Below are positions 13,666 through 38,891 of a DNA stretch of 64,000 bases, piece by piece. The notes beneath the pieces were generated by a model that saw only the letters and a list, made by a program, of their open reading frames with translations, did not search any database and was not told the DNA's origin. The position numbers were made by a program, and so were the translations under genes. Origin of the DNA: Solirubrobacterales bacterium 67-14 (GTDB taxonomy: Bacteria; Actinomycetota; Thermoleophilia; Solirubrobacterales; 70-9); the NCBI GenBank assembly GCA_001897355.1, contig MKST01000011.1, forward strand, positions 273,504 through 337,503. The letters run 5' to 3'. Each line of letters opens with the position of its first letter. The first letter of the stretch is position 1.

Positions 13666-13761
13666 TGCTACCTCCTCATCTCGTCTCTGGTCACCTCGCC
13701 TGCCGGCGCCCGGATCGGGGCCGACAGACCACATGGTACACTCTGCGGACAAAGTAACGCT

Positions 13762-13790
13762 ATGCGCACAACGAATTCGTTGCCGCGCAT
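13762..13790. promoter_or_regulatory. Near-perfect palindrome, candidate IclR operator
   Basis: Around the centre CAACGAATTCGTTG the arms extend to ATGCGCA and CCGCGCAT, giving a 29-nt palindrome with one extra base. Read on the minus strand, its left half is ATTCG-TTGTG-CGCAT, which fits the (G/A)TTCG-N5-CGCA(C/T) form I recall for PcaR-type IclR operators. It lies 17 nt upstream of the CoA-transferase start, and an IclR gene ends this cluster. Confidence 0.6.
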
Positions 13791-14662: not shown

Positions 14663-15384
14663 GCGCCTTCGACCCGGCCGAGCTGATGACGGTCGCCGCG
14701 GCGCGTGAGCTCCGCGACGGCCAGAGCGTGCTGGTCGGGGTCGGCCGGCCCAGCCACGCGGCGATCCTCGCCAAGCGGACCCATTCCCCTGGCCTGATCC
14801 TGGTCTACGAATCGGGGACGATCGACACCGACCCGGAGAACATCCCCCTCTCGATCGGCGACCCCGAGCTGGCCGCGACTTCGGTCTCGACCGTTTCCCT
14901 GCCGGACATCTTCAACTACTGGCTGCAGCCCGGGCGGATCGACGCCGGCTTCCTCGGCGCCGCCCAGATCGACCGCCACGGCAACCTCAACACGACCGTG
15001 ATCGGCGGCTACGACCATCCCAAGGTGAGGCTGCCCGGGGCCGGCGGCGCCCCCGAGATCGCCCGCTCCTGCAGCGAGATCGTGGTCACCCTCCCCCACT
15101 CGAAGCGCACCTTCGTCGAAGGGCTCGACTTCACGACCTCGCTCTGCCGGGGCGAGGGCGGCAGCATGGCCGTGGTGACCGACCTCGCCGTGCTGCGGAC
15201 CAGCGACCGCCACGACGAGCTCGAGCTGACCGAGACCTTCCCCGGGGTGTCGGTCGAGGACGTACTGGAGGCGACCAGCTGGGAGCTCAAGGTCGCACCG
15301 GAGGTCAGCACCGTCGCCGAGCCCTCCGACCGGGAGCTGGAGGTGCTCAGGTCCCTCGGGTCGAAGCCGAAGGCGGTGCGGTGA
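14659..15384 (+). CDS. CoA-transferase subunit B (PcaJ/GctB/IpdB-like)
   Basis: The 241-residue beta subunit contains the YESGTIDTD segment (E51), where class I CoA-transferases carry the catalytic glutamate that forms the glutamyl-CoA thioester. It begins with GTG in a GTGA overlap with subunit A and ends in a GTGATGATG overlap with the thiolase, so three proteins are translated in a chain. Presence of E51 argues for true transferase rather than only hydrolase activity, though IpdAB-like action cannot be excluded. Confidence 0.85.
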   Translation: MSAFDPAELMTVAAARELRDGQSVLVGVGRPSHAAILAKRTHSPGLILVYESGTIDTDPENIPLSIGDPELAATSVSTVSLPDIFNYWLQPGRIDAGFLGAAQIDRHGNLNTTVIGGYDHPKVRLPGAGGAPEIARSCSEIVVTLPHSKRTFVEGLDFTTSLCRGEGGSMAVVTDLAVLRTSDRHDELELTETFPGVSVEDVLEATSWELKVAPEVSTVAEPSDRELEVLRSLGSKPKAVR

Positions 15385-16690: not shown

Positions 16691-17533
16691 ATGAGTCCGG
16701 CAGACGGACAGTTCGTGGACCCCACCTCACGCGACCGGGGGCCGGTGATCAGCGGCGAACCAGTCGAGCGTTCCAAGGACTTCGTCAAGTCACTGGAGCG
16801 AGGACTGGCCGTGATCCGCGCGATGGGGTCGAGCAACGACCCGATGACCCTGAGCGAGGTCGCGGCGCGGGCCGGCATTCCCCGGGCCGCCGCCCGGCGG
16901 TTCCTGATCACGCTCAGCGAGCTCTCCTACGTGGAGAGCGACGGCCGGCTGTTCCGACTCACCCCGCGGGTTATGGAACTCGGCTACGGCTACCTTTCCG
17001 GCCTCTCGCTGCCGGACATCGCCATCCCCCACGCCGAGTGGCTGGTCAACGAGACCAAGCAGCCCTCCGAGGGCGCGATCCTCGACGGCGACGAGATCGT
17101 CTACGTCTTCCGCGTGCCCGGCCCCTACATCATGTCCTCGAACGTCAACGTCGGCGCCCGGATGCCGGCCCACGCCACGGCGCTCGGCAAGATGCTCCTG
17201 GCCGGCCTCTCGGACGACCGCTTGGACGAGCTCCTGAAGAAGATCAAGTTCGAGTCCTACACCGAACGCACGGTGACCGATCCGGCTCGCTTGAAAGAAG
17301 ACATCGAGCGGATCCGCGAGCTCGGCTACTCGCTGGTCGACCAGGAGTTGGAGCCCGGGCTCTGCGCGATCGCGGTCCCGATCAAGACCCGCAAGGAAGA
17401 CGAGCCGGTGGCGATCAACGTCTCCTCCAGCATCGTCCACCACACGCCCGAGTCGATGGTCGAGGAGATCCTGCCGCCCCTGCGGACCGCAGCCGACCAG
17501 ATCGCCGCCGACCTGGCCAGCACCGGCGCCTAG
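16691..17533 (+). CDS. IclR-family regulator, PcaR/PobR-like
   Basis: This 280-residue regulator has a winged helix-turn-helix at about residues 35-95 (SLERGLAVIRAMGSSNDPMT onward) and an IclR effector domain (100-275). The LELGYGYLS-like region, VGARMPAHATALGKMLL and GYSLVDQELEPGL resemble the PcaR/PobR/CatR branch that senses aromatic-pathway acids. It lies 98 nt after the thiolase on the same strand. It probably controls the CoA-transferase operon and could also bind the GTTCG-N5-CGAAC sites farther along; both are inference. Confidence 0.9.
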   Translation: MSPADGQFVDPTSRDRGPVISGEPVERSKDFVKSLERGLAVIRAMGSSNDPMTLSEVAARAGIPRAAARRFLITLSELSYVESDGRLFRLTPRVMELGYGYLSGLSLPDIAIPHAEWLVNETKQPSEGAILDGDEIVYVFRVPGPYIMSSNVNVGARMPAHATALGKMLLAGLSDDRLDELLKKIKFESYTERTVTDPARLKEDIERIRELGYSLVDQELEPGLCAIAVPIKTRKEDEPVAINVSSSIVHHTPESMVEEILPPLRTAADQIAADLASTGA

Positions 17534-20758: not shown

Positions 20759-21883
20759 TCAGGCCCGCTCGTCGGCGACCATGATCACGTCCGACCGGTG
20801 CCAGGAGACGATCGCCGGCTTGCCCGGTTCGAGCCCGTCCTCCTGGAACCTCGCGTACTCGCGCTGGCCCAGGTCGATGCGCAGGTCGGTCTCCTCCGAG
20901 ACCGTGGCATGCACTTGGTGGTTGGAGCCGTTGAAGACCACGTGGCTGATCGTCGCCGTCACCTCGTCGGTCCCGGCCTCGCCCTCCCCGGCCCGATCGG
21001 CCGGCCGGATGTCGAGCATCTTCGGGACCAGCACCGCGGCGAAGGTCGAGCTGCCGTTACTGGCGCGAGAGGCCGCACCGGTGACCGCGATGTCCGGGCC
21101 GCGGACCTCGATCATGTCGCCCCGACGGGCGTTCTCGCCGCTGATCACCGTGCCGGCGTTGATGAACTCGGCCACGTACCGGCTGGCCGGCGCCCGGAAC
21201 AGCTCCTCGGGCGTGTCCACCTGGACGATGCGGCCGTCCTCCATCACGGCAACCCGGTCGGCGATCGCGCAGGCCTCCTCCTGGTCGTGGGTGACGTGCA
21301 CGAAGGTCGTGCCCGAACGCTCCTTGAGCCGGACCAGCTCCTCCTGCATCTGCCGACGCAGCTTCAGGTCCAGCGCGCCGAGCGGCTCGTCGAGCAGCAG
21401 CAGGGCCGGCTCCTTGGCCATCGCCCGGGCCAGGGCGGCACGCTGAGCCTGCCCGCCCGAGAGCTCGGAGACCTTGCGCTTGTTGTACCCCTCCAGGCCG
21501 ACCAGGCTGAGGACCCGGTCCACGCGCCCCTGGCGCTCCTTCTTCGAGATGCCGTCCATCTTGAGCCCGAAGCCCACGTTCGATTCCACGTTCATGTGCG
21601 GGAACAGGGCGTAGCCCTGGAACACGGTGTTGGTCGGCCGTTTGTACGGCTTGAGGCCGGTCACGTCACGGCCCTCGATCTCGACCCGGCCCTGGTCCGC
21701 CTCGACGAAGCCGCCCATGATCCCGAGGGTGGTCGTCTTGCCGCAGCCGCTCGGCCCCAGCAAGGCGAGCAGCTCTCCCCTTTCGGCCTGGATCGAGACG
21801 CCTTCTTCGTCGGGCCCCAGCGCGTACTGCTCCTGTCCGGGGTACTTCTTCCGCAGTCCTTGGCAATTCAACGTGGTCGTCAT
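20759..21883 (-). CDS. ABC transporter ATPase, PotA-like
   Basis: The 374-residue ATPase has Walker A GPSGCGKTT (43-51), the signature LSGGQAQRAALARA, Walker B ALLLLDEPLGALD and a C-terminal TOBE domain (about 240-370). It powers the importer made with the fused permease and the binding protein, most like spermidine/putrescine systems. ATG 21883 is preferred because it overlaps the permease stop as ATGA; TTG 21907 would add eight residues. Confidence 0.93.
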   Translation of the reverse strand: MTTTLNCQGLRKKYPGQEQYALGPDEEGVSIQAERGELLALLGPSGCGKTTTLGIMGGFVEADQGRVEIEGRDVTGLKPYKRPTNTVFQGYALFPHMNVESNVGFGLKMDGISKKERQGRVDRVLSLVGLEGYNKRKVSELSGGQAQRAALARAMAKEPALLLLDEPLGALDLKLRRQMQEELVRLKERSGTTFVHVTHDQEEACAIADRVAVMEDGRIVQVDTPEELFRAPASRYVAEFINAGTVISGENARRGDMIEVRGPDIAVTGAASRASNGSSTFAAVLVPKMLDIRPADRAGEGEAGTDEVTATISHVVFNGSNHQVHATVSEETDLRIDLGQREYARFQEDGLEPGKPAIVSWHRSDVIMVADERA

Positions 21884-23562
21884 ATCCTCTGCTCTTTTCT
21901 TCCCCAAGTTCGGTCCCGGCCGAATGCGACCAGCGCACCCAGCAGGATGATCGTGAATGAAGCGACGATGATCACCGCCGCCAAGGCCATCAGCTCAGGC
22001 GAGATCTGGAACCTGATCGCGCTGTATATGTAGAGGGGCAGGGTGACCTGCGACCCGGTGACCAGGAAGGTCATGATGAACTCGTCCATCGACAGCGCGA
22101 AGCAGACCATCGCCGCTGCGATGATGCCCGGCAGCGCCTGCGGCAAGGTGATGTATGCGAAGGCGCGGATCGGCTTCGCCCCGAGGTCCATCGCCGCCTT
22201 CTCCTGGGCCAGGTCGAAACCCTCCAGCCGGACCAGGATCAGCAGCGTCGCGACCGGCAGGGTGAAGATCACGTGCGCCAGGACGATCGACCAGAGGCCC
22301 CGCTCGACGCCGATCGCGTTCATCCCGATCACCACCCCAAGCCCGAGGATGACCGGCGGCAGCAGCAGCGGCATCGAGAGCAGGAACAGGTTCACGTTGC
22401 GGTACTTGCCCTTGGTCCGCGCCATCTGCACCGCGGCCAAGGTTCCGAGGACGACGCTGGTCAAGACCGCGATGAGTGCGATCTGCAGGCTCAGCATCAG
22501 GGCCTGGATCAGGTTCGGATCGTCGAAGACGGCGCTGACCCAGTGCAGGGTTATGCCCTTGATCGGGAAGCCGACGATGTCGGACGCGTTCAGCCCGAAC
22601 AGGATCAGCAGCACGACCGGGATGTACAAGAAGAGGATGAAGGCGATCGCGTAGCCCAGCAGGAACGGGGAGCGCTCCCGGCTGTACTGCCGCGTGTACT
22701 CGCCGACCGACTGGACCCCGCCGCCGGAAGCCACCCTCAGCACGATCAGCAACACGGCGAAGCTGGCCAGGAGGATGAAGCCGAGCGCGGCACCGAAGCC
22801 CCACTGCAGCGAGCCGCCGAACTGGTTGACGATCAGGTTCGAGAAGAAGATCCCGTTCGTCCCGCCGATCAGGGTCGGCGTCACGTAGTCGCCGGCCATC
22901 ACGATGAAGCACATGATGAAGCCCGCGATCAGGCCCGATTTGCAGAAGGGGATGATCACGGCCGTCAGGCTGCGCCAGGGCCGCGCCCCGAGGTCGCTGG
23001 CCGCCCGGAGCAGCCGCACGTCCAGGCGCTCCAGCGAGATGTAGGTCGTCAAGAAGGCCATCGGGAACAGCAGGTAGACGAAGGTGATCAGGATCGCCGG
23101 ACGGTCGTAGGCGAAGAACTCGACCGGTGACGAGGCCAGATGCAGACGCATCAGCGCCTGGTTGATCACGCCGTTGTCGCCGAACAGGTTCTGCCAGGCG
23201 AAGACCCGGACCAGGTAGCTGGTCCAGAACGGCACGATCGCGGCGATCAGCCAGACCGGCCGCATCGACGGCCTCGCCCGTACCGCCACGAAGTAGGCGA
23301 ACGGGAAGGTCAGGAGGACCGTGACCAACGCGGAGAGACCGACGAACTTGAAGGTGTCGAAGAGCGTCCGGAGGTAGGTACCTCCGGACGCAAATGCCTT
23401 CGTGTAGTTGGAGAATGTCCATTGATGGACGATCTCGCCGTTGTGGGTCGGCCAGAACGAGTAGACCGCCATCACCAGGAGCGGCAGGATGAAGCCGACG
23501 ATCACGACCAGGATCGCCGGCACCGTCATGGCGCGATTTGCCAGTGGATCTTTGCTACCCAT
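21880..23562 (-). CDS. Fused ABC permease (PotB-PotC in one chain)
   Basis: The 560-residue inner-membrane protein consists of two permease domains. The N half (about 1-275) resembles PotB, with the EAA-type loop RLLRAASDLGARPWRSLTAV. The C half (about 300-555) resembles PotC, with the second EAA loop EKAAMDLGAKPIRAFAYI. Each half has about six helices. Most Pot-type importers use two separate chains. The gene lies 83 nt after the binding protein and overlaps the ATPase by 4 nt. Confidence 0.92.
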   Translation of the reverse strand: MGSKDPLANRAMTVPAILVVIVGFILPLLVMAVYSFWPTHNGEIVHQWTFSNYTKAFASGGTYLRTLFDTFKFVGLSALVTVLLTFPFAYFVAVRARPSMRPVWLIAAIVPFWTSYLVRVFAWQNLFGDNGVINQALMRLHLASSPVEFFAYDRPAILITFVYLLFPMAFLTTYISLERLDVRLLRAASDLGARPWRSLTAVIIPFCKSGLIAGFIMCFIVMAGDYVTPTLIGGTNGIFFSNLIVNQFGGSLQWGFGAALGFILLASFAVLLIVLRVASGGGVQSVGEYTRQYSRERSPFLLGYAIAFILFLYIPVVLLILFGLNASDIVGFPIKGITLHWVSAVFDDPNLIQALMLSLQIALIAVLTSVVLGTLAAVQMARTKGKYRNVNLFLLSMPLLLPPVILGLGVVIGMNAIGVERGLWSIVLAHVIFTLPVATLLILVRLEGFDLAQEKAAMDLGAKPIRAFAYITLPQALPGIIAAAMVCFALSMDEFIMTFLVTGSQVTLPLYIYSAIRFQISPELMALAAVIIVASFTIILLGALVAFGRDRTWGRKEQRI

Positions 23563-23645: not shown

Positions 23646-24857
23646 TCACTGACCCGTGATCTTGTCCCAAGCCGCGTTCCAGGCCTGGTTGTCATCCGGC
23701 AGGCCGAGCAGCGCGATCTGCTTCACGGTGTCGGGCTTGTCGGCGCCGATCGCCTTGGCCAGCTTGGCGGAATCGCCGCCGCGATCGATCGCCCGCTTGA
23801 CCGCATCCTGGTTTGCCTGGGCGAAGCCGTACTGATCCCACATGTAGGTCAGCAGCTTCTGGTCGCTGGCGAACCAGTCGATGTACTTGAGCGCGTTCTC
23901 CCGGTTCTTGGCGCCCTTGACCAGCATCGGACCGTCGATCCAGCCTGCGGTCCCCTGCTCGGGGATCACGTTCTTCGCCGTCTCGGAGCCGGCCTGCTGG
24001 TTGATCAGGAGGGCCGAGCTCATGTCCGGGCTGTAGCCGATCCACCCTTCCTCGGTCCGGATCTGGTTGCGGAACTGGGGCACCGCGTACGGGTTGACCT
24101 GGAAGGGCTTCAGCTCGATCAGCCGGTTGGTCGCGTTCTCCAGCTCGGCGCCCTTCATCTGGAGGATCTTGGTCAGCGGGACGCCCTGCTCGATGCCGGC
24201 CATGGAGAGGATTTCCACCGCGCCGCCCGAGAGGATGACCTTGTTGTCCGGGATCGACGGATCCCAGAGCTGCGACCACGAGTACGGCGGGGTCGGCTGG
24301 TAGTCGACATTGGTGTTCCAGATCATGCCCAGCGGCGCCCACATGTTCGGGTAGAGGAGCACCTTGTCCTTGTCCATGACATAGGGGAACTCGGTGTTCT
24401 CCTTGAAGACCGGGTAGAGCTGCTTGGACGAAGGGATGTCCTTCAGGTCTATGGTCTCGATCAGGTTGTTCTTGTAGTAGGTGGGCGTCCACCCCGCGTT
24501 GGCGAAGACGATGTCGAAGGAGCCCGCGCCGCCGGCCTTGAGCTTGGTGAACATGGTCTGGTCGGCGTCCGCGACGACCGTGTTCAGCTTGATGTCGGGA
24601 TGAGCCTCTGCCCAGAGCTTGTTTTCCTCGGAATCGACGTAGCTGGCCCAGCTCAGGACGTTCACCTCGCCGCCGGACGAGGAACCAGCGCCACAGGCGG
24701 CCAGGAAGGCGCTGCTGCCGCCGATCGCCAGCGCCACGCCGGCCGACTTGCCGATGAACTGCCGGCGCGTGGTGCGGCCGAACAGGCTCTTGTCCTTGTC
24801 TTCAGATGGACTCTCGATGATGCCTCCGGAGTCGCTCTTGGTCTTGCTTTCGCTCAT
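23646..24857 (-). CDS. Polyamine-type ABC substrate-binding lipoprotein
   Basis: This 403-residue protein of the PotD/PotF kind has a twin-arginine signal (RTTRRQFIGKSAG, R31/R32) and a lipobox FLAAC with C55, so it is probably exported folded by Tat and lipidated. The mature part starts EVNVLSWASYVDSEE, typical of spermidine/putrescine-binding proteins. It is the first gene of the six-gene operon. GGAGG lies 8 nt before the ATG, and tandem dyads lie about 300 bp upstream. Confidence 0.92.
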   Translation of the reverse strand: MSESKTKSDSGGIIESPSEDKDKSLFGRTTRRQFIGKSAGVALAIGGSSAFLAACGAGSSSGGEVNVLSWASYVDSEENKLWAEAHPDIKLNTVVADADQTMFTKLKAGGAGSFDIVFANAGWTPTYYKNNLIETIDLKDIPSSKQLYPVFKENTEFPYVMDKDKVLLYPNMWAPLGMIWNTNVDYQPTPPYSWSQLWDPSIPDNKVILSGGAVEILSMAGIEQGVPLTKILQMKGAELENATNRLIELKPFQVNPYAVPQFRNQIRTEEGWIGYSPDMSSALLINQQAGSETAKNVIPEQGTAGWIDGPMLVKGAKNRENALKYIDWFASDQKLLTYMWDQYGFAQANQDAVKRAIDRGGDSAKLAKAIGADKPDTVKQIALLGLPDDNQAWNAAWDKITGQ

Positions 24858-25206
24858 TTTCCACCCTCCGTTTGTTCTTCACTGCCATGTTTGACGAGAC
24901 GTGCTGCTGGGTTACTGCGTTGCGGTTCAGCTGCCGGACCTGGTCGGGCCAGCCATGGAAATCCGGGATCGAGGCCGCCGTCGGCGGCCGTCCTCCCAGC
25001 CGGGATCGTCGAAGTGCGCAGGGGGCCGTGCCCGTCCTCGGGTGACCGTACGGCCCTTTCGGGACCGATCGATCCGGACACTTTCCTCGCGGTGGCGGTG
25101 GACGCCAACTCAACTCCTCCGACTTCGATAGCAACCATGGCTAGAACACAAAATGTTCGTTACCCGAACAAAGTCTCGTATTGCGTACATTCTCTCATAT
25201 CTCGGA
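24858..25206. other. Intergenic region with importer promoter
   Basis: This 349-bp region lies between the SDR stop and the importer's binding protein. It contains the ribosome-binding site, a long leader without a credible gene, and the tandem dyads at 25155-25188. Short open frames on both strands here overlap each other and lack ribosome-binding sites. The leader of about 290 nt between the dyads and the start codon may hold an unseen regulatory element. Confidence 0.6.
25155..25188. promoter_or_regulatory. Tandem dyad operator, copy A (importer operon)
   Basis: GTTCG-TTACC-CGAAC (25155-25169, perfect; flanked T...A) is followed exactly 19 bp later by the weaker TCTCG-TATTG-CGTAC (25174-25188). 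The same pair with the same spacing occurs at 32427/32446 and 35881/35900. It is placed upstream of the ABC importer operon. Confidence 0.65.
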
Positions 25207-26022
25207 CTACCCGTGTTGCATTTCCGGGCCGAGCACATCCGGCCCTGGCAGCAGCGAGAGCGAGCCCCCGTCGACCGGCACCGAGGCACCGGTCATGAAG
25301 GACGAATCGTCAGATAGAAGGAAGGCCACCGAGGCCGCGATCTCCGCCGGATCGGCGCAGCGCTTCATCGCCTGGAGCCCGTCCATCAGCTCTCGCTGCA
25401 GCTCGGGATCGGGGGCATCCTCGACCTCCCGCTCGACCAGCGGGGTCAGCGTCGCGCCCGGCAGGATCGCGTTGGCGCGGATCCCCTGGGTCGCGTAGTC
25501 GACGCTGATCGCCCGGACGATCGCACCGACCGCCGCCTTGGAGATCGCGTAGATGCCGATCTTTGGGTAGGAGGCGACGTCATGGATCGAGCTGGTGCAG
25601 CAGATCGCCCCGCCGCCCAGTTCGAGCATGTGCCGGATCGCGTGCTTGCAGGTGAGGAAGACGCCCTTGGTGTTGACCGCGATCGTCCGGTCGAACCACT
25701 CGTCCGAGGTGTCGGCCAAGAGCAGCGGCGGCGTCTCGATGCCCGCGTTGGCGTGGACGCCGTCCAGCCGCCCGTGCCGGGCGACGATGCCGTCCATCAA
25801 CTCGGCGACCGAGCCCCCGTCCGATACGTCGCAGTGTGCGAACTCGATCCGGGGCACCGAGTCGGCCAGGGCCGGGCCCAGATCCGTGTCGATATCCGCC
25901 ACGACCACGGTCGCCCCCTCGGCAGCGAGCCGCCTCGCGGTCGCCTCGCCGATCCCGCTCGCCCCGCCGGTGACCACCGTCACCCTGCCCTCGAACCTGC
26001 CCTGCCCTGGAACCTCAGCCAT
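25207..26022 (-). CDS. Short-chain dehydrogenase/reductase
   Basis: The 271-residue classical SDR has the cofactor motif TGGASGIG, NAG in HANAGIE, catalytic Ser in CTSSIHD and YAISK for the Tyr/Lys pair. It uses NAD(P) on a secondary alcohol or ketone of unknown identity. The DIDTDL segment after beta-2 hints at NAD preference. ATG 26022 overlaps the end of the upstream dehydrogenase by 8 nt, and AGAGG precedes it. It is the last gene of the aminotransferase operon. Confidence 0.9.
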   Translation of the reverse strand: MAEVPGQGRFEGRVTVVTGGASGIGEATARRLAAEGATVVVADIDTDLGPALADSVPRIEFAHCDVSDGGSVAELMDGIVARHGRLDGVHANAGIETPPLLLADTSDEWFDRTIAVNTKGVFLTCKHAIRHMLELGGGAICCTSSIHDVASYPKIGIYAISKAAVGAIVRAISVDYATQGIRANAILPGATLTPLVEREVEDAPDPELQRELMDGLQAMKRCADPAEIAASVAFLLSDDSSFMTGASVPVDGGSLSLLPGPDVLGPEMQHG

Positions 26023-26953
26023 GGTCAACCTCTCTTCTCGCGGCTTCCGCCTTCATCAGTTGCTCGTCCCGCCAGAGGACTCGTGATCCCCACTCGTCCA
26101 GCGGCAGAATCTCCCGCCGGCCCGCCTCCGCCCGGGCCACCAGCTCCGGCGTCCAGGGGTCGTCTTGCCCCCGCTCCGCCCCCATCCGCTCGTAGGCGGC
26201 GCCCATCTTCTCGGCGTGGGAGGCGATGCCGCCTCTCGTGTTCAGGTCGGCAGTCTCGAAGGGCCCGGTCAGAGCCCAGCGCCGGCCCAGGCCGCCGCGG
26301 ACCGCGAGGTCGATCTCGTCGACCGAGGCCACCCCGTCGCGGAGCAGGCAGTACGCCTCGCGCAGGATCGCGCCCTGCAGGCGGTTGACCACGAAGCCCT
26401 CGGCCTCGGAGCGGACCAGGATCGGGCTCATGCCGACCGCGGCGAACATCTCCCGCGCCGACTCGACCGCCGTCTCAGCCGTGAAGCCGGCCGGGACCAG
26501 TTCCACCACCGGCAGCAGGTAGGGCGGGTTGGTCGGGTGGGCGACCAGGCAGCGTTCGGCACCGGCCAGCCCGTCGAAGAGGCTGGTCGGCGAGAGGGCC
26601 GACGTCGAGCTGGTCAGCAGGGCGTCGCCCGGAGCCGACTCCAGCACCGCCCGGTAGACCTCCCGCTTGAGTTCGAGCCGCTCGGGGGCGCACTCGATCA
26701 CCAGCTCCGCCTCGCCCACCGCCCAGGCTTGTTCGGCACCGGCCTCGACCCGCTCCGCGACCACGTCCACGGGCTCGCCGAGCAAGCCGTGCGCATCGAG
26801 GCGGCCGAGGCGCTCCTGGATCTCCGCCTCGACCGCCTCGACGCGCACCGGGTCGGGGTCGACGACCCGCACCGACCAGCCCGCCCGGGCGAAGGTGACC
26901 GCCCAGGCGACGCCGATCGACCCGGCGCCGACGATCCCGACCCGTCTGCTCAA
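26015..26953 (-). CDS. 3-hydroxyacyl-CoA dehydrogenase-family, CRYL1/carnitine dehydrogenase-like
   Basis: The 312-residue NAD-dependent dehydrogenase has VGIVGAGSIGVAWAV at the N terminus and the catalytic-His block RCLVAHPTNPPYLLP. Its length and the single HAD-NAD plus short C-domain layout match L-gulonate 3-dehydrogenase (lambda-crystallin) and L-carnitine dehydrogenase rather than beta-oxidation HAD. It probably oxidises a beta-hydroxy acid without CoA. TTG 26953 overlaps the gcvPB stop as TTGA. Confidence 0.87.
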   Translation of the reverse strand: MSRRVGIVGAGSIGVAWAVTFARAGWSVRVVDPDPVRVEAVEAEIQERLGRLDAHGLLGEPVDVVAERVEAGAEQAWAVGEAELVIECAPERLELKREVYRAVLESAPGDALLTSSTSALSPTSLFDGLAGAERCLVAHPTNPPYLLPVVELVPAGFTAETAVESAREMFAAVGMSPILVRSEAEGFVVNRLQGAILREAYCLLRDGVASVDEIDLAVRGGLGRRWALTGPFETADLNTRGGIASHAEKMGAAYERMGAERGQDDPWTPELVARAEAGRREILPLDEWGSRVLWRDEQLMKAEAARREVDHG

Positions 26954-28500
26954 GGGCTGGTCCGCCCCTTCGGTCGGTCGCCGTGCTTGCGCTTGTAGGC
27001 CCGCCAGGTGGTCGCCCACTGGTCGGGCTCGTCGAGCCTCGATCCATCGACCGGACCGATCGCCTGGTTGTGCGGTGCCGTCTTGACGATCTCGGGGTCC
27101 TCGTAGGCCTCGCGACAGACCTGGGCGAGGACGTCGATCCAGTAGTCGAGATCCTCGATCGGCCAGGTCTCGCCCGCCTCCGGGGTGATCGGCTCGGGCA
27201 CCAGCCAGGGCTCGTGGCTCAGCCATGGTGCGTCGACCCCGAAATCGACCATCCGGTTCTGGACGTCGAAGACGGTCACGCCGGTGTCCTCCTGGAGCTT
27301 GCCGAGGCTGTACCTCGTCATCTCGAGCCGGCGGCTCTTGATGTCCGGGTGGCTGATGCTCAGGCCCGGGATCTCGAGCAGGCGCTTCTCCATGTAGTTG
27401 TTGGCCAGGACCGACATGTCGGAGGCGAAGCGGATGCCCTCGGCGCCCATCGATCGCACCCAGGAGTAGGCCTTGACGATCTGGGGGACATTGCCCCAGT
27501 ACTCGCGAACGCGCCCCACGCTCTTCGGCGCCTCGTCGACGTCCTCGAGCGAGTAGGAACCACCCTGCTCGCGGACCAGGGGCCGCGGCATGTAGGGCTC
27601 GAGCTCGGACGAGCATCCGTATGCGCCGACCGCCGGCCCACCGCCGCCGAACGGCGCAGCAAAGGTCTTGTGGAGCATGAACATGCAGGCGTCGAAGCCG
27701 AGTTCACGGGCTCGCAGCTTGCTCATCGCGCCGTTGAAGTTGGCGTGGTCGTAGAAGCAGAGCCCGCCGGCCTCGTGGACCAGGTCCACCCACTGCTTGA
27801 TCTCGGGGTTGTAGATCCCCATGTCGTCCGGGTTGCCGATCATCATGCCCGCGGTCCGCTCCGAGACGGCCGCCTCGAGCGCCTCCAAGGGCGGGTAGCC
27901 GTCCTCGCCCAGCATCAGGGTGACCACCTTGAAGCCGGCCGCCGCGGCGGTCGCGGCGTTGCAGGGATGGGTCTGGATCGTGGTGATGATCTCGTTGCGC
28001 TGCTCGAGCTCGCCGCGGTCCGCGTGGTAGGCCCGGGTCGTGACCGCGTTGACGTAGGCGGCATCGGCCCCGCCGCCGGCCTGGAACACGAACTGGTCCA
28101 TGCCGGAGAGCTCGCAGAGGATCTCGCTCATGCCATGAAGCACCGCGAGCACGCCCTGGATGGTCTCGGGATCCTGCCCGGGATGGAGCTCCGCGATGTG
28201 ATCGGCGGAGATCCGCTCACCCAGCAGCGGCGAGTACTTGATCGTGCAGGTGCCGAACAGGTTCACCCCCATCATGCCCAGGGTCTCCTGGGCCAGATGT
28301 ATGTAGTGGCGCTGGACCTCGGCCTCCGACAGCTCCGGCAGGCCGGCCCGTTCCCCGCGCTTCATCGAATCGGGTACGAAGCCGGCCGTGTCGGCGTCAC
28401 CGGCCGCCGGCGGGATGAACCCGCGGCGCCCCGGGCTGCCCATCTCCATCACCACCGGCTCGTCCCAAACCGGCGCGTGATACCTGCGCAGGCCGCTCAC
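26950..28500 (-). CDS. gcvPB: Glycine dehydrogenase (decarboxylating) subunit 2
   Basis: The 516-residue C-terminal half of the glycine cleavage P-protein has the PLP lysine in MLHKTFAAPFGGGGPA (K278), the FQAGGGADA loop and the MIGNPDDMGIYNP block. With GcvPA it decarboxylates glycine and passes an aminomethyl group to a lipoyl carrier. The GTG start overlaps gcvPA by 4 nt. No gcvH, gcvT or lpd lies in the window, so this may be a paralogue dedicated to this catabolic cluster. Confidence 0.92.
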   Translation of the reverse strand: MSGLRRYHAPVWDEPVVMEMGSPGRRGFIPPAAGDADTAGFVPDSMKRGERAGLPELSEAEVQRHYIHLAQETLGMMGVNLFGTCTIKYSPLLGERISADHIAELHPGQDPETIQGVLAVLHGMSEILCELSGMDQFVFQAGGGADAAYVNAVTTRAYHADRGELEQRNEIITTIQTHPCNAATAAAAGFKVVTLMLGEDGYPPLEALEAAVSERTAGMMIGNPDDMGIYNPEIKQWVDLVHEAGGLCFYDHANFNGAMSKLRARELGFDACMFMLHKTFAAPFGGGGPAVGAYGCSSELEPYMPRPLVREQGGSYSLEDVDEAPKSVGRVREYWGNVPQIVKAYSWVRSMGAEGIRFASDMSVLANNYMEKRLLEIPGLSISHPDIKSRRLEMTRYSLGKLQEDTGVTVFDVQNRMVDFGVDAPWLSHEPWLVPEPITPEAGETWPIEDLDYWIDVLAQVCREAYEDPEIVKTAPHNQAIGPVDGSRLDEPDQWATTWRAYKRKHGDRPKGRTSP

Positions 28501-29897
28501 CGGACCGCCTCCGTCAGGGCTTCGCCGAGCAAGGCGATGTCCTCGTCCTGGTGGACCTCGGTCACGCAGATCAAGGCGCTCTGGCCCAGCTCGGGGAAAC
28601 GGCCCGAGAGGTCGAGGCCGCCGAAGATGCCCTGCTCGCGGAGCGAGGCGTTGATCTCGGCCACCGTCTTGCCGGTGCCGTTGAAGTCGGCCACGAATTC
28701 CTTGAAGAAGGCGTCGCCGAAGCGGACCTCGACGCCCGGGATGCGGGCGACGGTCTCGGCGGCCTGATGACTGCGACCGAGGATCGTCCGCCCGATCTCC
28801 TCGAAGCCGCGTGGGCCGAGCAGGGCCATGTAGACCGAAGCGGCTATCGCCCAGAGGTAGGTCGAGTTGCCGGTCCAGTCGTTGCCCAGCTCGCGTGAGC
28901 CGTAGGAGGTCTGTTCGAAGAGGGTCATCGAAAAGCCGATGTCCCCTTCGGCCGTGTGTGCCGCGGAGAGGCAGAGGGTCGGGTACTGGCGGGCGTAGCG
29001 CTCCTCGTCCCGGGAGGCGATGAAGCCGCTGGCGCCACCGCCGCAGTTCATGTGCACCCCGAGCGACTGGATCGTGCCGACCACGATGTCCGCGCCCCAG
29101 GCCGACGGCGAGGCGGTGACGCCGAGCGCGATCGGGTCGACGCCGACGATCACCTCCGCCCCCGCTTCCTTGGCCAGGCGGGCGGCCTCCGGCCCGCTTG
29201 CCTCGAAGGTGCCGAGGAAAGACGGGTTCTCGAGGTAGATGGCGGCGGTCCGGTCGGAGAGCTTGGACCGGAAGTCCTCCAGGTCGAGGCAGCCGGTCTC
29301 CCAGTCGGTCGCGACTTCGACCAGCTCGATGTGGTGCTCGAGCTCGGGCAACCCGGCGTAGGTCTCGATCACCGCGCGGCGTTCCGGGTCGAGCGACGCG
29401 GCGACCAGCACCTCCGAGCGCCCGTTGATCCGCTGGGCCATCAGCATCGCGTGGCCGGCAGCGCAACCCCATGAGTAGACCGGCAGCCCGACGAAGTCGA
29501 GTTCGAGCAGTTCGCCGAGCTGGGAGCAGAACTCGAAGAGCGACTGGGTCCGCCCGAGATCCGAAGAGGGGGTGCCCCAGATGTTGTTGAGGAACTCGGC
29601 CCGGCCGACGATCTCGTCGACCACCGCCGGCACGTAGTGGGGCCAGCAGCCACCGCCGAGGAAGCTTGCCTTCGGTTTCACGTCGCGGCTCAGCAGGTCG
29701 TCCATGTGGCGCGAGAGATCGGCTTCGGAGACCAGCGCCGGCGGCAGCTCCAGGCCACCCGCAAGTCGGTGCTCAGCCGGGATCTGCTCGAAGAGCTCCT
29801 CGACATCCGATGCCCCGACCACGTCCAGCATGTGCTCGACCGTGGCCTGGTTCGAGTTGGCCATCAGGTGATGGGGCTCGATCTTGCTCACGTCCAT
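28497..29897 (-). CDS. gcvPA: Glycine dehydrogenase (decarboxylating) subunit 1
   Basis: The 466-residue N-terminal half of P-protein contains the conserved FLGGGCWPHYVPAVVDEI, FEFCSQLGELL and VGTIQSLGVHMNCGGGASGF blocks. It pairs with GcvPB to build the pyridoxal-dependent decarboxylase. It begins 13 nt after the AcoX-like kinase gene and is transcribed with it. The canonical type has YxPYQAE-like segments; here this region reads NNIWGTPSSDLGRTQSLFEF, a noticeable departure, so the substrate could differ from glycine. Confidence 0.88.
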   Translation of the reverse strand: MDVSKIEPHHLMANSNQATVEHMLDVVGASDVEELFEQIPAEHRLAGGLELPPALVSEADLSRHMDDLLSRDVKPKASFLGGGCWPHYVPAVVDEIVGRAEFLNNIWGTPSSDLGRTQSLFEFCSQLGELLELDFVGLPVYSWGCAAGHAMLMAQRINGRSEVLVAASLDPERRAVIETYAGLPELEHHIELVEVATDWETGCLDLEDFRSKLSDRTAAIYLENPSFLGTFEASGPEAARLAKEAGAEVIVGVDPIALGVTASPSAWGADIVVGTIQSLGVHMNCGGGASGFIASRDEERYARQYPTLCLSAAHTAEGDIGFSMTLFEQTSYGSRELGNDWTGNSTYLWAIAASVYMALLGPRGFEEIGRTILGRSHQAAETVARIPGVEVRFGDAFFKEFVADFNGTGKTVAEINASLREQGIFGGLDLSGRFPELGQSALICVTEVHQDEDIALLGEALTEAVR

Positions 29898-29910
29898 TCC
29901 CTCTCCTCCA

Positions 29911-31038
29911 CTAGGCCGCCACCTCGTAGATGAGCGACTCTTTTCTGCCGATTCGCACCGGGCGATACCCGGTGAAGCGCCTGTCGATGTCCGTATCTCC
30001 GGTGTCGACCGTCAAGGGCGAGGATCCGAGCTCGATCAATTTCTGCAGGTCGGCGACCACGATCAGGTCGCCGGGGTCGACCCGCTCCAGGGTCTTGGGC
30101 CCGATCTGCTGGTTGCCTCGCCCCAGCAGCGACCCTTGGCCGCCGATCACACCCATGACCAGGTGGACGCGACCGGCCTCGGCGGTCAGCTCGTCCAGCT
30201 CGGCCTCGGTCACGTCGCCGGCGATCAACTCCCGGTCGCGGACCACGTCGATCGCCAGCGGGTCGGACTGGAAGCCGAGATGGCGACGGACCCAGCCCAT
30301 GGTCGAACCGGGGCCGATCACGTATGTATCGCCCGGGACCATCTCCTCTACCACCTCGAGGCAGGCGCCCCGCATGGCCGCGGCGTCACGCCCGCTCGAT
30401 CGCGACTTCGCGGCCAGCAGGCGGGAGCGCGCCTCCGGCACGGAGACCGTGCCGTAGAGGGTGGTCGTGGCCTTGGGATCGTCGGCGTCGCGATCGACCA
30501 CTTCCGCCTCGTCCAACCGTACGGACCCGGGATCGTGGCCCAGGTACTCGGCGACCACGTCCGCCGCCGCGGCCGGGCTCCTCGCGAAACAGCCCGAATG
30601 CATCTTGACGCCGGTCGGGATGCCCACCACCGGGATCCGGCGGCCGATCGACTCGCGAATCACCCTGGCGGTGCCGTCGCCGCCGGCGAACATGATCAGT
30701 TCGACGCCGGAGTCGGCCATCGCCAGGGCCGCATCGCGGGTGTCGTCGGGTGAGGTGTGGCAGCCGAACCGCCCGGTCACCTCGGTCTCGAAGCCGTGCT
30801 CGCGGGCCACCTTCTCGCCCATCGCCCCGCCCGCCACGGTCAGGGTGAAGCCCTGGCCCCGCAGGCGGTCGAGCGCAACCCCGGCTCTCTCGGCCGCCAT
30901 CTCGGTCGCGCCGAGCTCCCTGGCCCGCCGCTGAAGCTCGTCCCCGTCGGTGCCGCGCAGCCCGACCTTGCCTCCCATCCCGGCGATCGGGTTGACGATC
31001 AACCCGATCCGGCGGCGGAGGGAGGTCGGGCCGGCCAT
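29911..31038 (-). CDS. ATP-NAD kinase/AcoX-like protein
   Basis: The 375-residue protein opens with RIGLIVNPIAGMGGKVGLRG and carries the nucleotide motif GGDGT (119-123) and IPTGVKMHSGCFA, which are characteristic of the AcoX-like branch of the NAD kinase superfamily. AcoX genes accompany acetoin and other catabolic operons, and their reaction is not established. It sits between the aminotransferase and gcvPA, 4 nt after the aminotransferase stop. Confidence 0.87.
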   Translation of the reverse strand: MAGPTSLRRRIGLIVNPIAGMGGKVGLRGTDGDELQRRARELGATEMAAERAGVALDRLRGQGFTLTVAGGAMGEKVAREHGFETEVTGRFGCHTSPDDTRDAALAMADSGVELIMFAGGDGTARVIRESIGRRIPVVGIPTGVKMHSGCFARSPAAAADVVAEYLGHDPGSVRLDEAEVVDRDADDPKATTTLYGTVSVPEARSRLLAAKSRSSGRDAAAMRGACLEVVEEMVPGDTYVIGPGSTMGWVRRHLGFQSDPLAIDVVRDRELIAGDVTEAELDELTAEAGRVHLVMGVIGGQGSLLGRGNQQIGPKTLERVDPGDLIVVADLQKLIELGSSPLTVDTGDTDIDRRFTGYRPVRIGRKESLIYEVAA

Positions 31039-31042
31039 CGCC

Positions 31043-32443
31043 TCAGGCCCTGCCCAGTTCCTTCGCGACCTGGTCGGCCGAATCGCGGGCGACCGAGACC
31101 ATCTGGTCGATCTCCGCCTCTTCGATCACGAAGGGCGGTGAGAAAGAGATCGTGTCGGCCTCCGGGAGGGCCCGCGAGATCACCCCCCGCTCCAGGCAGG
31201 CCTGGTTGATCCGCCGCCCGACCCCGAGCGCCGGGTCGAAGCGGACCGCCGGATCCTTCTCGGCCACGAACTCGACCGCGGCGACCAGGCCCTTGCCGCG
31301 CACCTCGCCGACCAAGGGGTGGTCGGCGAAGGCTTCGCGCAGGTTGGAGCGCAGGCGTTCGCCCCGGACGGTGACCTGGGAGATCAGGTCCTCGTCTTCG
31401 ACGATGTCGAGGTTGGCCATCGCCGCGGCGGCCGAAAGGGGGTGGGCACTGTAGGTGTATCCGTGGCCGAAGGCAAGGCCGCTGTCCGAGTGCTCGGCCA
31501 GCACGTCCCAGACCTTGCCGGTGACCAGGCAGGCGGAGAGCGGCACGTACCCGGAGGTGATCCCCTTCGCGACCGTGATCAGGTCGGGCTCCATTCCCAT
31601 CACCGTCGACCCGAACCACTCGCCGAGACGGCCGAAGGCGGAGACCACCTCGTCGGCGATGAGCAGGACGTCGTGTCGGTCGAGTACCTCCTTGATGGCG
31701 GGGAAGTAGCCATCGGGAGGAATGATGACGCCCCCGGCCGCTTGGATCGGCTCGGCGATGAAAGCGGCGACGGTGTCCGGCCCCTCGTCCAGGATCAGCT
31801 GCTCGAGGTCAGCGGCGAGCCGGGCCGAGAAGTCGGCGTCGCTCTCCCCCGGCTTCGCTTCCCAGAGCCGCGATGGAGTCGTGGTGTGCCGGATGAACGG
31901 CAACGGCAGGTCGAAACCCTCGTGGAGGTTGCTGAGTCCGGTCAGCCCGGCCGTGGCGATGGTCACCCCGTGGTAGCCGCGACGGCGGGAGATGACCTTC
32001 TTCTTCTCCGGCCGCCCGAGGGCGTTGTTGTAGTACCAGACCAGTTTGATCTGGGTGTCGTTCGCGTCCGAGCCGCTGTTGCCGTAGAAGACCTTGGAGA
32101 TCGGCACCGGGGCGAGCTCGGTCAGGCGCTCGGCCAGCCGGGCGGGGGTATCGGTCGCCATCGACGAGAAGGCGTGGTAATAGGGCAGCTTCAGGGTCTG
32201 GTCGTACAGCGCCTGCGCGATCCGCTCCCGCCCGTAGCCGACGTTGACGCACCAGAGCCCGGCCATGGCGTCCAGGTACTCGGTGCCGGCTTCGTCCCAG
32301 AGGGTCGAAGCCTTGCCGCGGACCATCATCCGCGGACCTGTTCGCTGATGCTCTCCGAGCACCGTGAAGGGGTGAAAGACGTGCTTCCGGTCGAGTTCGG
32401 AAGCCGCCGGCATGTCTGGGGGATTTGTTCGGCTTGCGTTCAT
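31043..32443 (-). CDS. Class III (omega) aminotransferase
   Basis: The 466-residue PLP enzyme has [34 protein letters not shown]264 in [13 protein letters not shown] and Schiff-base K293 in [13 protein letters not shown]. Relatives are omega-amino acid:pyruvate or putrescine/taurine aminotransferases, giving an aldehyde from a terminal amine. That aldehyde would suit the divergent aldehyde dehydrogenase. ATG 32443 is preferred; TTG 32488 is open upstream but would cover the operator. It is the first gene of a six-gene operon. Confidence 0.9.
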
Positions 32444-32460
32444 TTGCTCGTTATGCGAAC
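32427..32460. promoter_or_regulatory. Tandem dyad operator, copy B (aminotransferase/aldehyde dehydrogenase)
   Basis: GTTCG-GCTTG-CGTTC (32427-32441) and GCTCG-TTATG-CGAAC (32446-32460) are 19 bp apart, as at the other two loci. The second lies between the divergent aminotransferase and aldehyde dehydrogenase genes; the first falls inside the aminotransferase 5' end if ATG 32443 is used. A shared regulator could control both directions. Confidence 0.6.
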
Positions 32461-32506
32461 CTTTACATATTGACGGAGGTTTGTCCAATCGAAGGAGAAA
32501 TGGCCG

Positions 32507-33976
32507 ATGGCAGCAACCGAAACCAGTCCCCTCGACAGCCGGCTCTGGCGCGAGGATCTGTTCATCGACGGCCGATGGGTCGAATCCGATTCGGGTGAAC
32601 GGCTGACGGTCACCGACCCCGCGACCGGCGAGGAGATCGCCCGGGTCTCATCGGCCGGTGCGGCCGAGACCGAAGCCGCGATCGACGCCGCCGCGCGGGC
32701 GCTGCCGGCCTGGGCGGGGCTCACCGCCAAGCAGAGGGCCGGCATCATGCGGGACTGGTTCGACCTGATCGTCGAGCACGCGGAGGAGTTGGCGGCGATC
32801 CTCGTCCTCGAGCAGGGCAAGCCGCTCGCCGAAGCGGTCGGGGAGATCCACTACGGGGCAGGCTTCCTGGAGTGGTACGCCGAGGAGGGCAAGCGCGCCT
32901 ACGGCGACGTGGTGCCGACCAACCAGGACGGGCGCCGGATCTTCGCGATCAAGCAGCCGGTCGGCGTCTGCGCCGCGATCACCCCCTGGAACTTCCCCTC
33001 GGCGATGATCATGCGCAAGGTCGCCCCCGCCCTCGGCGCCGGCTGCACCATCGTGGTCAAGCCGGCCGAGCAGACCCCCCTCTCTGCCACCGCCCTGGCC
33101 AAGCTGGCCGAGGAGGCCGGAGTCCCGGCCGGGGTGCTCAACGTGGTCACCGGTGACCCGGCCGCGATCGGCGGCGCCATCACCTCCGACGCCCGGGTGC
33201 GCCTGCTCAGCTTCACCGGGTCCACCCCGGTCGGCAAGCTGCTGATGTCACAGTGCGCCGAGACCGTCAAGCACGTCTCGCTGGAGCTCGGCGGCAACGC
33301 GCCGCTGATCGTCTTCGACGATGCCGACCTCGACGCCGCAGTCGAGGGGGCGATGGCCTCCAAGTTCCGTAATGCCGGCCAGACCTGCGTCTGCGCCAAC
33401 CGGCTGATCGTCCAGGACGGCGTCTACGACGAGTTCGTCGAGAAACTGGTCGCGGCAACGGAGGCACTCACCGTCGGCTCCGGATTCGAGGAAGGGGTCG
33501 ACCAGGGCCCGCTGATCGACGACGCGGCGGTGGCCAAGGTCGAGTCCCACATCGCCGACGCGACCAGCCGCGGGGCCGAGGTCGCCACCGGCGGCACCCT
33601 CCACGAGAGAGGCGGAACCTGGTTCGCCCCGACCGTGCTGACCGGGGTCGGCCCGGAAATGCGGATCGCCTCGGAGGAGACCTTCGGGCCGGTCGCTCCC
33701 GTCTTCCGCTTCGACAGCGAGGAGGAGGCGCTCCGGATGGCCAACGCCACCGAATCCGGCCTCGCCGCCTACTTCTTCTCGCGCGACGTCGGCCGCACCT
33801 GGCGCTTTGCCGAGCGACTCGAGTTCGGCGTGGTAGGAGTGAACACCGGAGTCATCTCATACGAAGGGGCACCCTTCGGGGGTGTCAAGCAATCCGGCCT
33901 GGGAAGAGAGGGTTCGCGGTTCGGGCTCGACGACTTCCTGGAAATCAAGTACGTCTGTCTGGAGGGAATCGAATGA
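32507..33976 (+). CDS. Aldehyde dehydrogenase, succinate-semialdehyde type
   Basis: The 489-residue NAD(P)-dependent dehydrogenase has N162 in [10 protein letters not shown]260 in LELGGNAP and catalytic C294 in [11 protein letters not shown]. The CVC pair and the [13 protein letters not shown] segment resemble GabD. It would oxidise the semialdehyde made by an omega-aminotransferase to an acid. GGAG lies 10 nt before the ATG. It overlaps the SDR gene by 4 nt (ATGA). Confidence 0.92.
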
Positions 33977-34743
33977 AGTCACTCGAAGGGCGCACCGCGA
34001 TCGTCACCGGTTCCGCGCAAGGCATCGGCCGCGGGATCGCCGAGGTGCTCGGGCGCGAAGGTGCCAAGGTAGTGATCGCCGACATCAACGGCGAGCTGGC
34101 CGAGGCCACCGCCAGGCAGCTGGAGGACGAGGGGATCGAGGCGATCGGGGCCGGGGTCGACGTCACCGACACCGACAGCCTCGACGGGCTGGTCGCCAGG
34201 ACGGTCGAAGAGTTCGGATCGATCGACATCCTCGCCGCCAATGCCGGGATCTATCCGGCCGACCCGATCGAGGAGGTCGACCGGGCCGGCTGGGACCGGG
34301 TCATGGACCTCAACGTGGCCGGCGCGTTCTTCTCATTCCAGGCCTGCCTGCCGCAGATGCGCGAGCAGGGTTATGGCCGGGCCGTCTTCACCTCTTCGAT
34401 CTCCGGGCCCTACACCGGTCATCCCGGCTACTCGCACTACGGCGCCTCGAAGGCCGCGGTGCTGGGTTTCATGCGCTCGGCCGCGATCGAGACCGCCCGG
34501 CAGGGGATCACCGTGAACGCCGTGCTGCCCGGCAACGTCCAGACCCCGGGCCTGGACGACGCCGGCGAGGAACACAAGCAGGCGATGATGGCGTCGATCC
34601 CGATGGGCGAATTCGCGACCCCGGCGGACATCGGCTGGGCGGTCCGTTTCCTCGCCTCGGAGGAGGCCCGGTACATCACCGGGCACCCGCTCGTGGTCGA
34701 CGGCGGACAGGTGCTGCCGGAGACGCCGCTGGCGCTCCACTGA
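33973..34743 (+). CDS. Short-chain dehydrogenase/reductase
   Basis: The 256-residue classical SDR has TGSAQGIG, AANAGIY, Ser in TSSISGPY and the active-site YGASK. It is close to 3-oxoacyl-reductase or sugar/polyol dehydrogenase types. Acidic DING after beta-2 suggests NAD use. It is coupled to the aldehyde dehydrogenase and followed after 18 nt by an EamA transporter, so it likely reduces or oxidises an intermediate of the same route. Confidence 0.9.
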   Translation: MKSLEGRTAIVTGSAQGIGRGIAEVLGREGAKVVIADINGELAEATARQLEDEGIEAIGAGVDVTDTDSLDGLVARTVEEFGSIDILAANAGIYPADPIEEVDRAGWDRVMDLNVAGAFFSFQACLPQMREQGYGRAVFTSSISGPYTGHPGYSHYGASKAAVLGFMRSAAIETARQGITVNAVLPGNVQTPGLDDAGEEHKQAMMASIPMGEFATPADIGWAVRFLASEEARYITGHPLVVDGGQVLPETPLALH

Positions 34744-34761
34744 GCGGCAGGCCGGCCCCAC

Positions 34762-35604
34762 TTGATCTCGGTCCTGCTCGGCGCCTCGGCGGCACTCTGC
34801 TGGGGTGCCCAGAACGTCTTGCTGGCCGGGGTCGCCCGCCGGGGAGACCCCGACGTGGCGGCGCTCTGGTACGTGACCTACATGGCCCTGCTGGCCGCCC
34901 CCTTCGCGCTCGCGACCGGGGATCTCTCCGACCTGGCCGACGGCACGATCGGCTACTTCGTCCTGGCCGGGCTGGTGCAGGCCTTCGGGATGATCGCCTT
35001 CACCCGGGCGCTCGGGATCGGGCCGGTGGGAATGCTGACCGGGCTGCTCTCGCTCGAAGGCTCCGGGGCGGCGATCCTCAGCTTCGTCGCCGGCGAGTCG
35101 GTCGGCCTGCCGGTCGCGGCGGGCCTGCTGCTGGCCAGTGTCGGCGGCGTGCTGCTGGTCGCCTCCCGCTCGGGTGGATCGCCGAACCGCGGCGTAGGCC
35201 TGACCCTGGCCGCGGTCGCCTGCTTCGCGGCCAGCCTCTTCTGCCTAGGCCACTACGAGGCCAACCTCGCGCTGACCATGCTCGTCTTCAACGGAGCCTC
35301 GTCCCTCGCCATCGCCGGCCTGCTTAAGGTGCAGGGACGGAGCCTGGCCACCGGCCGCTTCGAATCGGCCCGGTCCGAGTCGGTGATGATCCTGATCGCC
35401 GCCCTGGGCCTGCTCGGCCTGGTCTCCTTCGCCTACGGGTCGAGGCAGGGCTCGACCGCGGTGACGGCGGTCCTCTCCGCCCAGTTCGGGGCGGTCGCCG
35501 CGATCGGCGGCTACTTCCATTTCGGCGAGAAACTCGCCCCCAGCCAGATCGCCGGTTTCGCGATCCTCGCCTCGGGGGTCAGCCTGGTCGCGGCGTTCGC
35601 CTGA
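34762..35604 (+). CDS. EamA-family small-molecule transporter
   Basis: This 280-residue membrane protein has about ten helices in two EamA repeats (1-135 and 145-280). It belongs to the DMT superfamily, which moves amino acids, amines or other metabolites. The start is TTG with poor ribosome-binding signal, so the first few residues are uncertain. It is the third gene of the aldehyde dehydrogenase operon and ends convergently 12 nt from tatA. Confidence 0.83.
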   Translation: MISVLLGASAALCWGAQNVLLAGVARRGDPDVAALWYVTYMALLAAPFALATGDLSDLADGTIGYFVLAGLVQAFGMIAFTRALGIGPVGMLTGLLSLEGSGAAILSFVAGESVGLPVAAGLLLASVGGVLLVASRSGGSPNRGVGLTLAAVACFAASLFCLGHYEANLALTMLVFNGASSLAIAGLLKVQGRSLATGRFESARSESVMILIAALGLLGLVSFAYGSRQGSTAVTAVLSAQFGAVAAIGGYFHFGEKLAPSQIAGFAILASGVSLVAAFA

Positions 35605-35616
35605 CCGCGGCTTCGT

Positions 35617-35838
35617 CTAGGCGACGTCTGCCTTGGCCGGCTCCGCGGCCTTTTCGACCTCGGCCTGGGCCGGGCTGCCCTCGTCCACACTGTCTTGGCG
35701 GCTGTTCAGCCCGGACTTGAATTCACGAAGTCCCTTGCCGGCCGAGCGTCCCAGTTCCGGCAACTTTCGGGGACCGAAGATCACCAGCAGCAAGATCAGG
35801 ACGATCGCTATTTCCATGGGACCGATGTTCGGAATCAC
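35617..35838 (-). CDS. tatA: Twin-arginine translocase subunit TatA
   Basis: The 73-residue protein has one N-terminal helix (PMEIAIVLILLLVIF), the FGPRKLPELGRSAGKG hinge and amphipathic helix typical of TatA/E, and an acidic Ala-rich tail. The GTG start at 35838 has AGGAG upstream; the longer frame from 35910 lacks Tat features. It sits inside the catabolic island without tatB/C. The Tat-signalled binding protein at 24857 could use it. Confidence 0.9.
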   Translation of the reverse strand: MIPNIGPMEIAIVLILLLVIFGPRKLPELGRSAGKGLREFKSGLNSRQDSVDEGSPAQAEVEKAAEPAKADVA

Positions 35839-35880
35839 TTTGCCTCTCCTCGTTGGATTCAGCGCAGAGCATAGCCCCTG

Positions 35881-35914
35881 ATTCGTATTACGCGCAAACG
35901 TTCGATTCACGAAC
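35881..35914. promoter_or_regulatory. Tandem dyad operator, copy C (tatA upstream region)
   Basis: ATTCG-TATTA-CGCGC (35881-35895) and the perfect GTTCG-ATTCA-CGAAC (35900-35914) are 19 bp apart. They lie 43-76 bp upstream of the tatA start, between tatA and the end of the flavoprotein gene. The arrangement equals copies A and B. Confidence 0.6.
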
Positions 35915-35950
35915 CCGGCCTGGGGACCGTGACCAGCGCGACCGCGACCG

Positions 35951-38855: not shown

Positions 38856-38872
38856 GTCGTTCTCCAGTATGT

Positions 38873-38884: not shown

Positions 38885-38891
38885 TGTACTA

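Follow-up and report, generated by a model that had tools for sequence, protein, structure and literature searches.

The window analysed here, a 64-kb stretch of the genome of Solirubrobacterales bacterium 67-14, carries tandem copies of the dyad TGTTCG-N5-CGAACA in several intergenic regions, and the question that it raises is whether these copies are operators and, if so, which protein binds them. An initial annotation had reported three such pairs and proposed that a single regulator occupies both sites of each pair and joins the neighboring importer, aminotransferase, aldehyde dehydrogenase and tatA genes into one regulon. A fourth pair was identified, and for all of them the most likely regulator, and our candidate binder, is an IclR-family protein whose gene lies within the cluster at about 16691-17533. 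At a probability of roughly 0.87, the pairs would be operators of this PcaR/PcaU/PobR-type protein, controlling four gene groups jointly.

Gene content of the cluster

For the first group, a gene for a two-domain VOC/glyoxalase-fold protein (12739..13665, minus strand) is followed on the plus strand by genes for a CoA-transferase subunit A-like protein (13808..14662, PF01144), an open frame with a CoA-transferase subunit B-like domain at residues 218-413 (14032..15384, PF01144), the true start of which is probably further in, a thiolase resembling 3-oxoadipyl-CoA thiolase (15381..16592, under the pcaF cut-off) and the IclR-family regulator (16691..17533, PF01614 at 1.5e-36; read as P0001 from 16694). 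The CoA-transferase and thiolase genes, with scores under the pcaI, pcaJ and pcaF cut-offs, adjoin the regulator gene, and as the latter lies 3' of the thiolase gene in the same orientation, it may be autoregulated through the fourth pair. The second group is an importer operon on the minus strand, encoding a PotD-type solute-binding protein (23646..24857, by Pfam, with a twin-arginine/lipobox signal read from the sequence) and a permease of the BPD_transp_1 family with its ATPase (20759..23562). The permease is a single frame of 560 amino acids (21880-23562, minus strand) with two BPD_transp_1 stretches.

The third group comprises, on the minus strand at 25207..32413, genes for a class III aminotransferase, NAD-kinase-like, GcvPA-like and GcvPB-like proteins (these latter three at 26950-31038, minus strand), a 3HCDH protein and an SDR, together with a plus-strand gene for an aldehyde dehydrogenase of the succinate-semialdehyde dehydrogenase subfamily (32507..33976; TIGR01780, 704.8 bits with a cut-off of 646.35). 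The fourth is a gene for a TatA-type protein (35617..35838, minus strand) recognized by a TatA/B/E family match; the genome has three genes of this family, and the family search cannot tell TatA from TatB. A TetR gene is located in the window at about 38754-39545, and one open frame at 37011-38855 (minus strand) combines a diaminopimelate/ornithine decarboxylase-like domain with a VOC domain.

Putative operator pairs in the window

All six reported dyads are present. The pair 25155/25174 (25154..25189) lies 5' of the PotD-PotBC-PotA-type importer operon (minus strand), 32427/32446 (32426..32461) separates the aminotransferase gene (minus strand) from the aldehyde dehydrogenase gene (plus strand), and 35881/35900 (35880..35915) lies 5' of the tatA-type gene (minus strand); the pairs themselves have no assigned strand. 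Their mismatches to GTTCG-N5-CGAAC are 0/3, 2/1 and 3/0, respectively, so that each pair holds at least one perfect or single-mismatch copy, as the initial annotation had it. It had overlooked a fourth, weaker pair, 13736/13755 (13735..13770, likewise without a strand), which separates the VOC gene (minus strand) from the CoA-transferase gene (plus strand) and joins the set. This pair is more degenerate, with 3+4 mismatches, and has the same centre-to-centre spacing as the other three, 19 bp in all four. With a matrix of the six reported sites its score is 15.2 bits, a value exceeded in the window only by the three reported pairs and by an overlapping, shifted version of the first, and a matrix trained with the fourth pair included gives 25.1. 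By itself it is modest evidence, and the case is made by its location together with its conservation in a genome of the same genus. Eighteen dyads, reduced to the distinct ones and taken on both strands, yield the consensus TGTTCGCAATGCGAACA, which fits the palindrome GKTYCRYW3RYGRAMC, and a similar consensus was found in 36 pairs of other loci, which were selected by the matrix and are so biased.

On the plus strand of the 64-kb window, YTCG-N5-CG repeated at 19 bp is confined to the three reported places, and the minus strand has one further repeat, at 26298-26327 within the 3HCDH reading frame. The three plus-strand matches to this exact pattern compare with a mean of 0.30 and a maximum of 2 in 300 first-order Markov resamples; for 19-bp pairs with at most four mismatches in total, the same resamples gave a mean of 0.13 and a maximum of 2 versus three observed. 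The claim that the equal spacing is unlikely by chance thus stands, whereas the three loci can hardly be called unrelated, as a single cluster of about 25 kb holds all of them. Single dyad-like matches were also noted at 42154 (14.0 bits), with no strong partner at 15-25 bp, and at 59704 (10.9 bits), with a weak partner at 22 bp (pair 16.2); both are probably due to chance.

The distance from the pair centre to the start codon is about 31 nt for the likely ATG of the aminotransferase gene (32413, picked because matches of relatives begin near that point), 63 nt for aldehyde dehydrogenase, 60 nt for tatA, 55 nt for CoA-transferase, 88 nt for VOC and about 315 nt for PotD. Scans of the four intergenic regions holding pairs found no sigma-70-like promoters. 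Rfam gave no matches at the gathering score in 12000-42000, and hence the 300-nt leader of the importer operon has no match to a known riboswitch. A terminator-like match at 25154-25170 was rejected as a terminator, being the palindrome itself; another such match is at 32502-32518 on the minus strand.

Specificity of the pairs in the genome and among 61 genomes

A genome-wide scan had been suggested as a check, and its outcome depends on the model used. The loose YTCG-N5-CG pair is non-specific, with 24 matches in the 3.23-Mb genome, 21 of them elsewhere than at these sites; the same pattern read backwards, as a control, has 4 matches. The whole-pair profile is specific. This sequence-only profile was trained on both strands of nine pairs, namely the four of the window, four of G011 (the genome of the same genus) and one of G040. 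In the own genome it has four places at E≤0.01, which are the window pairs, all in the cluster, with E-values from 5e-7 to 1e-3 for these members of the training set (5.2e-4 for the fourth pair, likewise included in training), and the next place has an E-value of 0.32. A repeat of this search scored 150 of 264 first-look candidates.

The search of 61 genomes used stricter filters and scored no more than 104 candidates in any genome, and the model E-values are rough. Among the candidates scored, matches at E≤0.01 were identified in four genomes: the own genome (G000), G011 (its four pairs), G040 (C421 and C28) and G053. Sites of G000, G011 and G040:C421 were in the training set, and those of G040:C28 and G053 are independent of it. 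An IclR homologue at E≤1e-30 is present in five of the 61 genomes, and four of these five are the genomes with profile matches at E≤0.01; the fifth, G050, has no site at E≤1 among the candidates scored. On the same candidates, a match at E≤1 was obtained in 10 of the 61 genomes, the best E-value in the 56 without a homologue being 0.17.

Conservation in near relatives and across phyla

In G011, where the aminotransferase is 93% and the IclR protein 85% identical, all four pairs are kept. The aminotransferase pair is an identical 40-mer there and similar in G040. The counterpart of the importer pair (L139:2871) has many bases changed and keeps the dyad form (2 + 3 mismatches), and that of the fourth pair is at L138:13238. 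The counterpart of the tatA pair is at L139:13548, and the tatA-type gene is kept as well, which favors the membership of tatA in the regulon. The importer binding protein has a twin-arginine motif in both genomes, and this would give a reason for co-regulation of tatA, namely export of the protein. An SDR gene (L139:2074-2820), not listed in the window, heads the importer operon of G011 between the pair and PotD; this gene, which would have been lost in the window genome or gained in G011, may account for the long leader devoid of genes in the window. In G053 a pair adjoins SDR genes, and the cluster around it also includes genes for CoA-transferase, thiolase and an IclR protein.

Conservation before orthologous operons, the other check suggested, was followed with a matrix of the six reported sites alone in the best 80 of 587 candidate loci obtained with the aminotransferase as query, 16 of which contain GcvPA. 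Within 260 nt of the aminotransferase start, the best 19-bp pair scored 13.7-32.9 bits in 13 of the 16 GcvPA loci and at most 8.0 bits in the 64 loci without GcvPA. Among the same 80 loci, 19-bp pairs of at least 18 bits numbered 25 in 15 module loci (320 kb) versus none in 65 others (1,083 kb), L030 being counted among the others, where lowering the threshold to 16 bits gave two. Near-copies among the loci (e.g. L032/L035 and L036/L037) make these counts non-independent events. The spacing of 19 stands out, as other spacings from 14 to 26 gave 0-4 pairs in module loci and 0-2 in the others. Three loci with GcvPA (L030, L044 and L045) have no pair directly before the aminotransferase gene; in L030 the aminotransferase match starts 247 bases into the contig, and L044 and L045 have strong pairs elsewhere in the locus. 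The genera include Pseudomonas, Paraburkholderia, Caballeronia, Sphingomonas, Leucobacter, Microbacterium, Salinibacterium, Nocardioides and Actinomadura, and a 19-bp pair thus precedes the orthologous aminotransferase gene in both Actinobacteria and Proteobacteria. The proposal that one regulator joins the importer, aminotransferase/aldehyde dehydrogenase, VOC/CoA-transferase-thiolase and tatA operons is well supported, as judged from the specificity in the genome, the retention of 4/4 pairs in G011 and this cross-phylum conservation.

Candidate regulator and alternative binders

The IclR protein of the window scores 284.6 bits with TIGR02431 (PcaR/PcaU/PobR), 0.15 below the curated cut-off of 284.75, over profile positions 2-248 of 248. 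Its nearest solved relatives in the PDB include 2ia2, 5w1e and 8eju, the last being a regulator of a Pca regulon. Three IclR genes were detected in the genome by PF01614, one of them in the window; of the other two, L025 is 26% identical to the window protein and has a different recognition helix, and L027 was absent from the matches in the identity comparison. The recognition helix RA-x-x-RR-x-L-x-TL is kept.

An IclR homologue is present in 14 of the 80 aminotransferase loci (the best 80 of 587). In Actinomadura, L039 has pairs, and an IclR gene (50% identity) is on the same contig just beyond the first stretch examined; three places at E≤1 were obtained in this 10.7-Mb genome with 150 of 726 candidates scored, all on the L039 contig. 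The L030 genome encodes an IclR protein (39%) on a different contig, and the 12 kb around its gene contain pairs of 17.5-22.8 bits. Among plasmids, eight matches at least 50% identical to GcvPA were found and six examined: both loci with an IclR gene in the stretch (L172 and L176) have pairs of at least 18 bits, and the four without it have pairs of at most 15.4 bits. When 25 IclR rows were placed in a tree, the regulators of the module did not group into a single clade (6 changes; mean after shuffling 6.3), so that PcaR-type paralogues could own some sites elsewhere. As the motif is also common to PcaR-type relatives (e.g. in G053), the site appears to report a PcaR-type regulator, not one pathway.

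Binding of the pairs by another regulator, either the TetR protein encoded in the window or a protein of the Lrp/AsnC type, is improbable. Lrp/AsnC-type proteins favor 15-bp 5-5-5 dyads in phase, a geometry similar to that of the pairs. However, no homologue of the TetR protein was found at E≤1e-15 in the best 80 of 587 aminotransferase loci, where IclR homologues do occur, the pairs track IclR on the plasmids, and the motif and the spacing both agree with those given for IclR proteins in the main text of PMC8222616.

The numerous matches of the loose pattern elsewhere in the genome might suggest that it merely picks up short GC-rich palindromes by chance. Such an origin has next to no probability, as the profile, the matrix, the resampling, the aminotransferase-start controls and the conservation in relatives speak strongly against it. 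We give equally little credence to SOS boxes. The actinobacterial LexA box resembles CGAAC-N4-GTTCG, and the 5+5+5+4 spacing of tandem dyads yields an inner dyad of this geometry, the half-sites of which are not weaker than the outer ones in relatives; in the three reported pairs, however, the inner half-sites have 7 mismatches and the outer ones 2. No repair-family match was found among the downstream proteins scanned, and the pairs follow IclR. The inner dyad also resembles the motif of IclR group 2, given as TGRAACAN1-2TGTTYCA in the main text of PMC8222616.

Proposed mechanism and relation to known IclR regulons

Under control by the IclR protein, each dyad would take one dimer, and as 19 bp is about two helical turns, two dimers would lie on one face of the DNA, with a dimer of dimers holding the operator pair. 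The protein would respond to a compound of the pathway and control the importer operon, the divergent aminotransferase/NADK-GcvPA-GcvPB-3HCDH-SDR and aldehyde dehydrogenase operons, the VOC and CoA-transferase-thiolase-(IclR) pair, and tatA, so that nutrient uptake and breakdown are probably controlled together. Since the aminotransferase pair is so near the start codon, our guess is repression relieved by the ligand. Activation is the control mode of PcaU and PobR and would be the alternative here. Counting against control by the IclR protein are G050, which has a homologue and no site at E≤1 among the candidates scored, the weak fourth pair (15.2 bits), the lack of promoters in the scans and the distance of the PotD start.

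The tandem-operator architecture is already known. In the main text of Suvorova and Gelfand (2021, PMC8222616), IclR group 1 has the palindrome GKTYCRYW3-4RYGRAMC, and tandem sites with 18-22 nt between centres are described for 94 orthologous groups, a spacing that fits tetramers with dimers facing one side of the DNA; the sites lie near gene starts, and AtoD/AtoA CoA-transferase genes recur in the regulogs. The pairs described here share with group 1 the palindrome, the tandem spacing and an IclR gene nearby. Likeness to PcaR of Corynebacterium glutamicum, for which Table 1 of the same paper gives GTTCGC-N3-GCGAAC, and to PcaU and PobR of Acinetobacter extends to TIGR02431 (just under the cut-off), the half-site GTTCG and the adjacent CoA-transferase and thiolase genes. 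Unlike PcaU, which is described there with three boxes, the four half-sites form two dyads, and unlike in these systems the genes are for the most part those of a PotD-type importer, an aminotransferase, an aldehyde dehydrogenase and GcvP-like proteins. The main text of PMC8222616, the supplement of which may list this orthologous group, contains none of the terms aminotransferase, COG0403, COG1003, COG3199, COG0161 and polyamine, and literature searches on the pathway found no report to the point among the papers listed. The content of the regulon is possibly new, namely a Tat-type PotD importer, aminotransferase, aldehyde dehydrogenase, NAD-kinase-like/GcvPA/GcvPB, CoA-transferase/thiolase and a tatA-type gene.

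Tentatively, and at somewhat under even odds, the module may represent an uncharacterised catabolic regulon found in both Actinobacteria and Proteobacteria, the PcaR-like IclR proteins of which moved from an aromatic pathway to one for a nitrogen compound (aminotransferase, aldehyde dehydrogenase and NADK-GcvPA-GcvPB), here also controlling a Tat subunit for export of the binding protein. The analysis names a candidate regulator for the regulon first proposed and provides a specific sequence signature, a pair of dyads spaced by 19 bp, by which the module genes are grouped across phyla. It also predicts that a tatA-type gene is controlled jointly with a binding protein bearing a Tat signal. The pathway of the module, above all GcvPA/GcvPB and the NAD-kinase-like protein, becomes open to direct genetic test. 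GcvPA/GcvPB genes with no kinase gene beside them occur in Natronosalvus, and the NAD-kinase-like/GcvPA/GcvPB trio was also seen with other neighbors on plasmids of Rhodococcus, Paracoccus, Sphingomonas, Gemmobacter and Roseicitreum. As a hint to the pathway, pairs of relatives at L029:1537, L040:18512 and L170:8867 precede frames that resemble, by eye, the dihydrodipicolinate synthase family.
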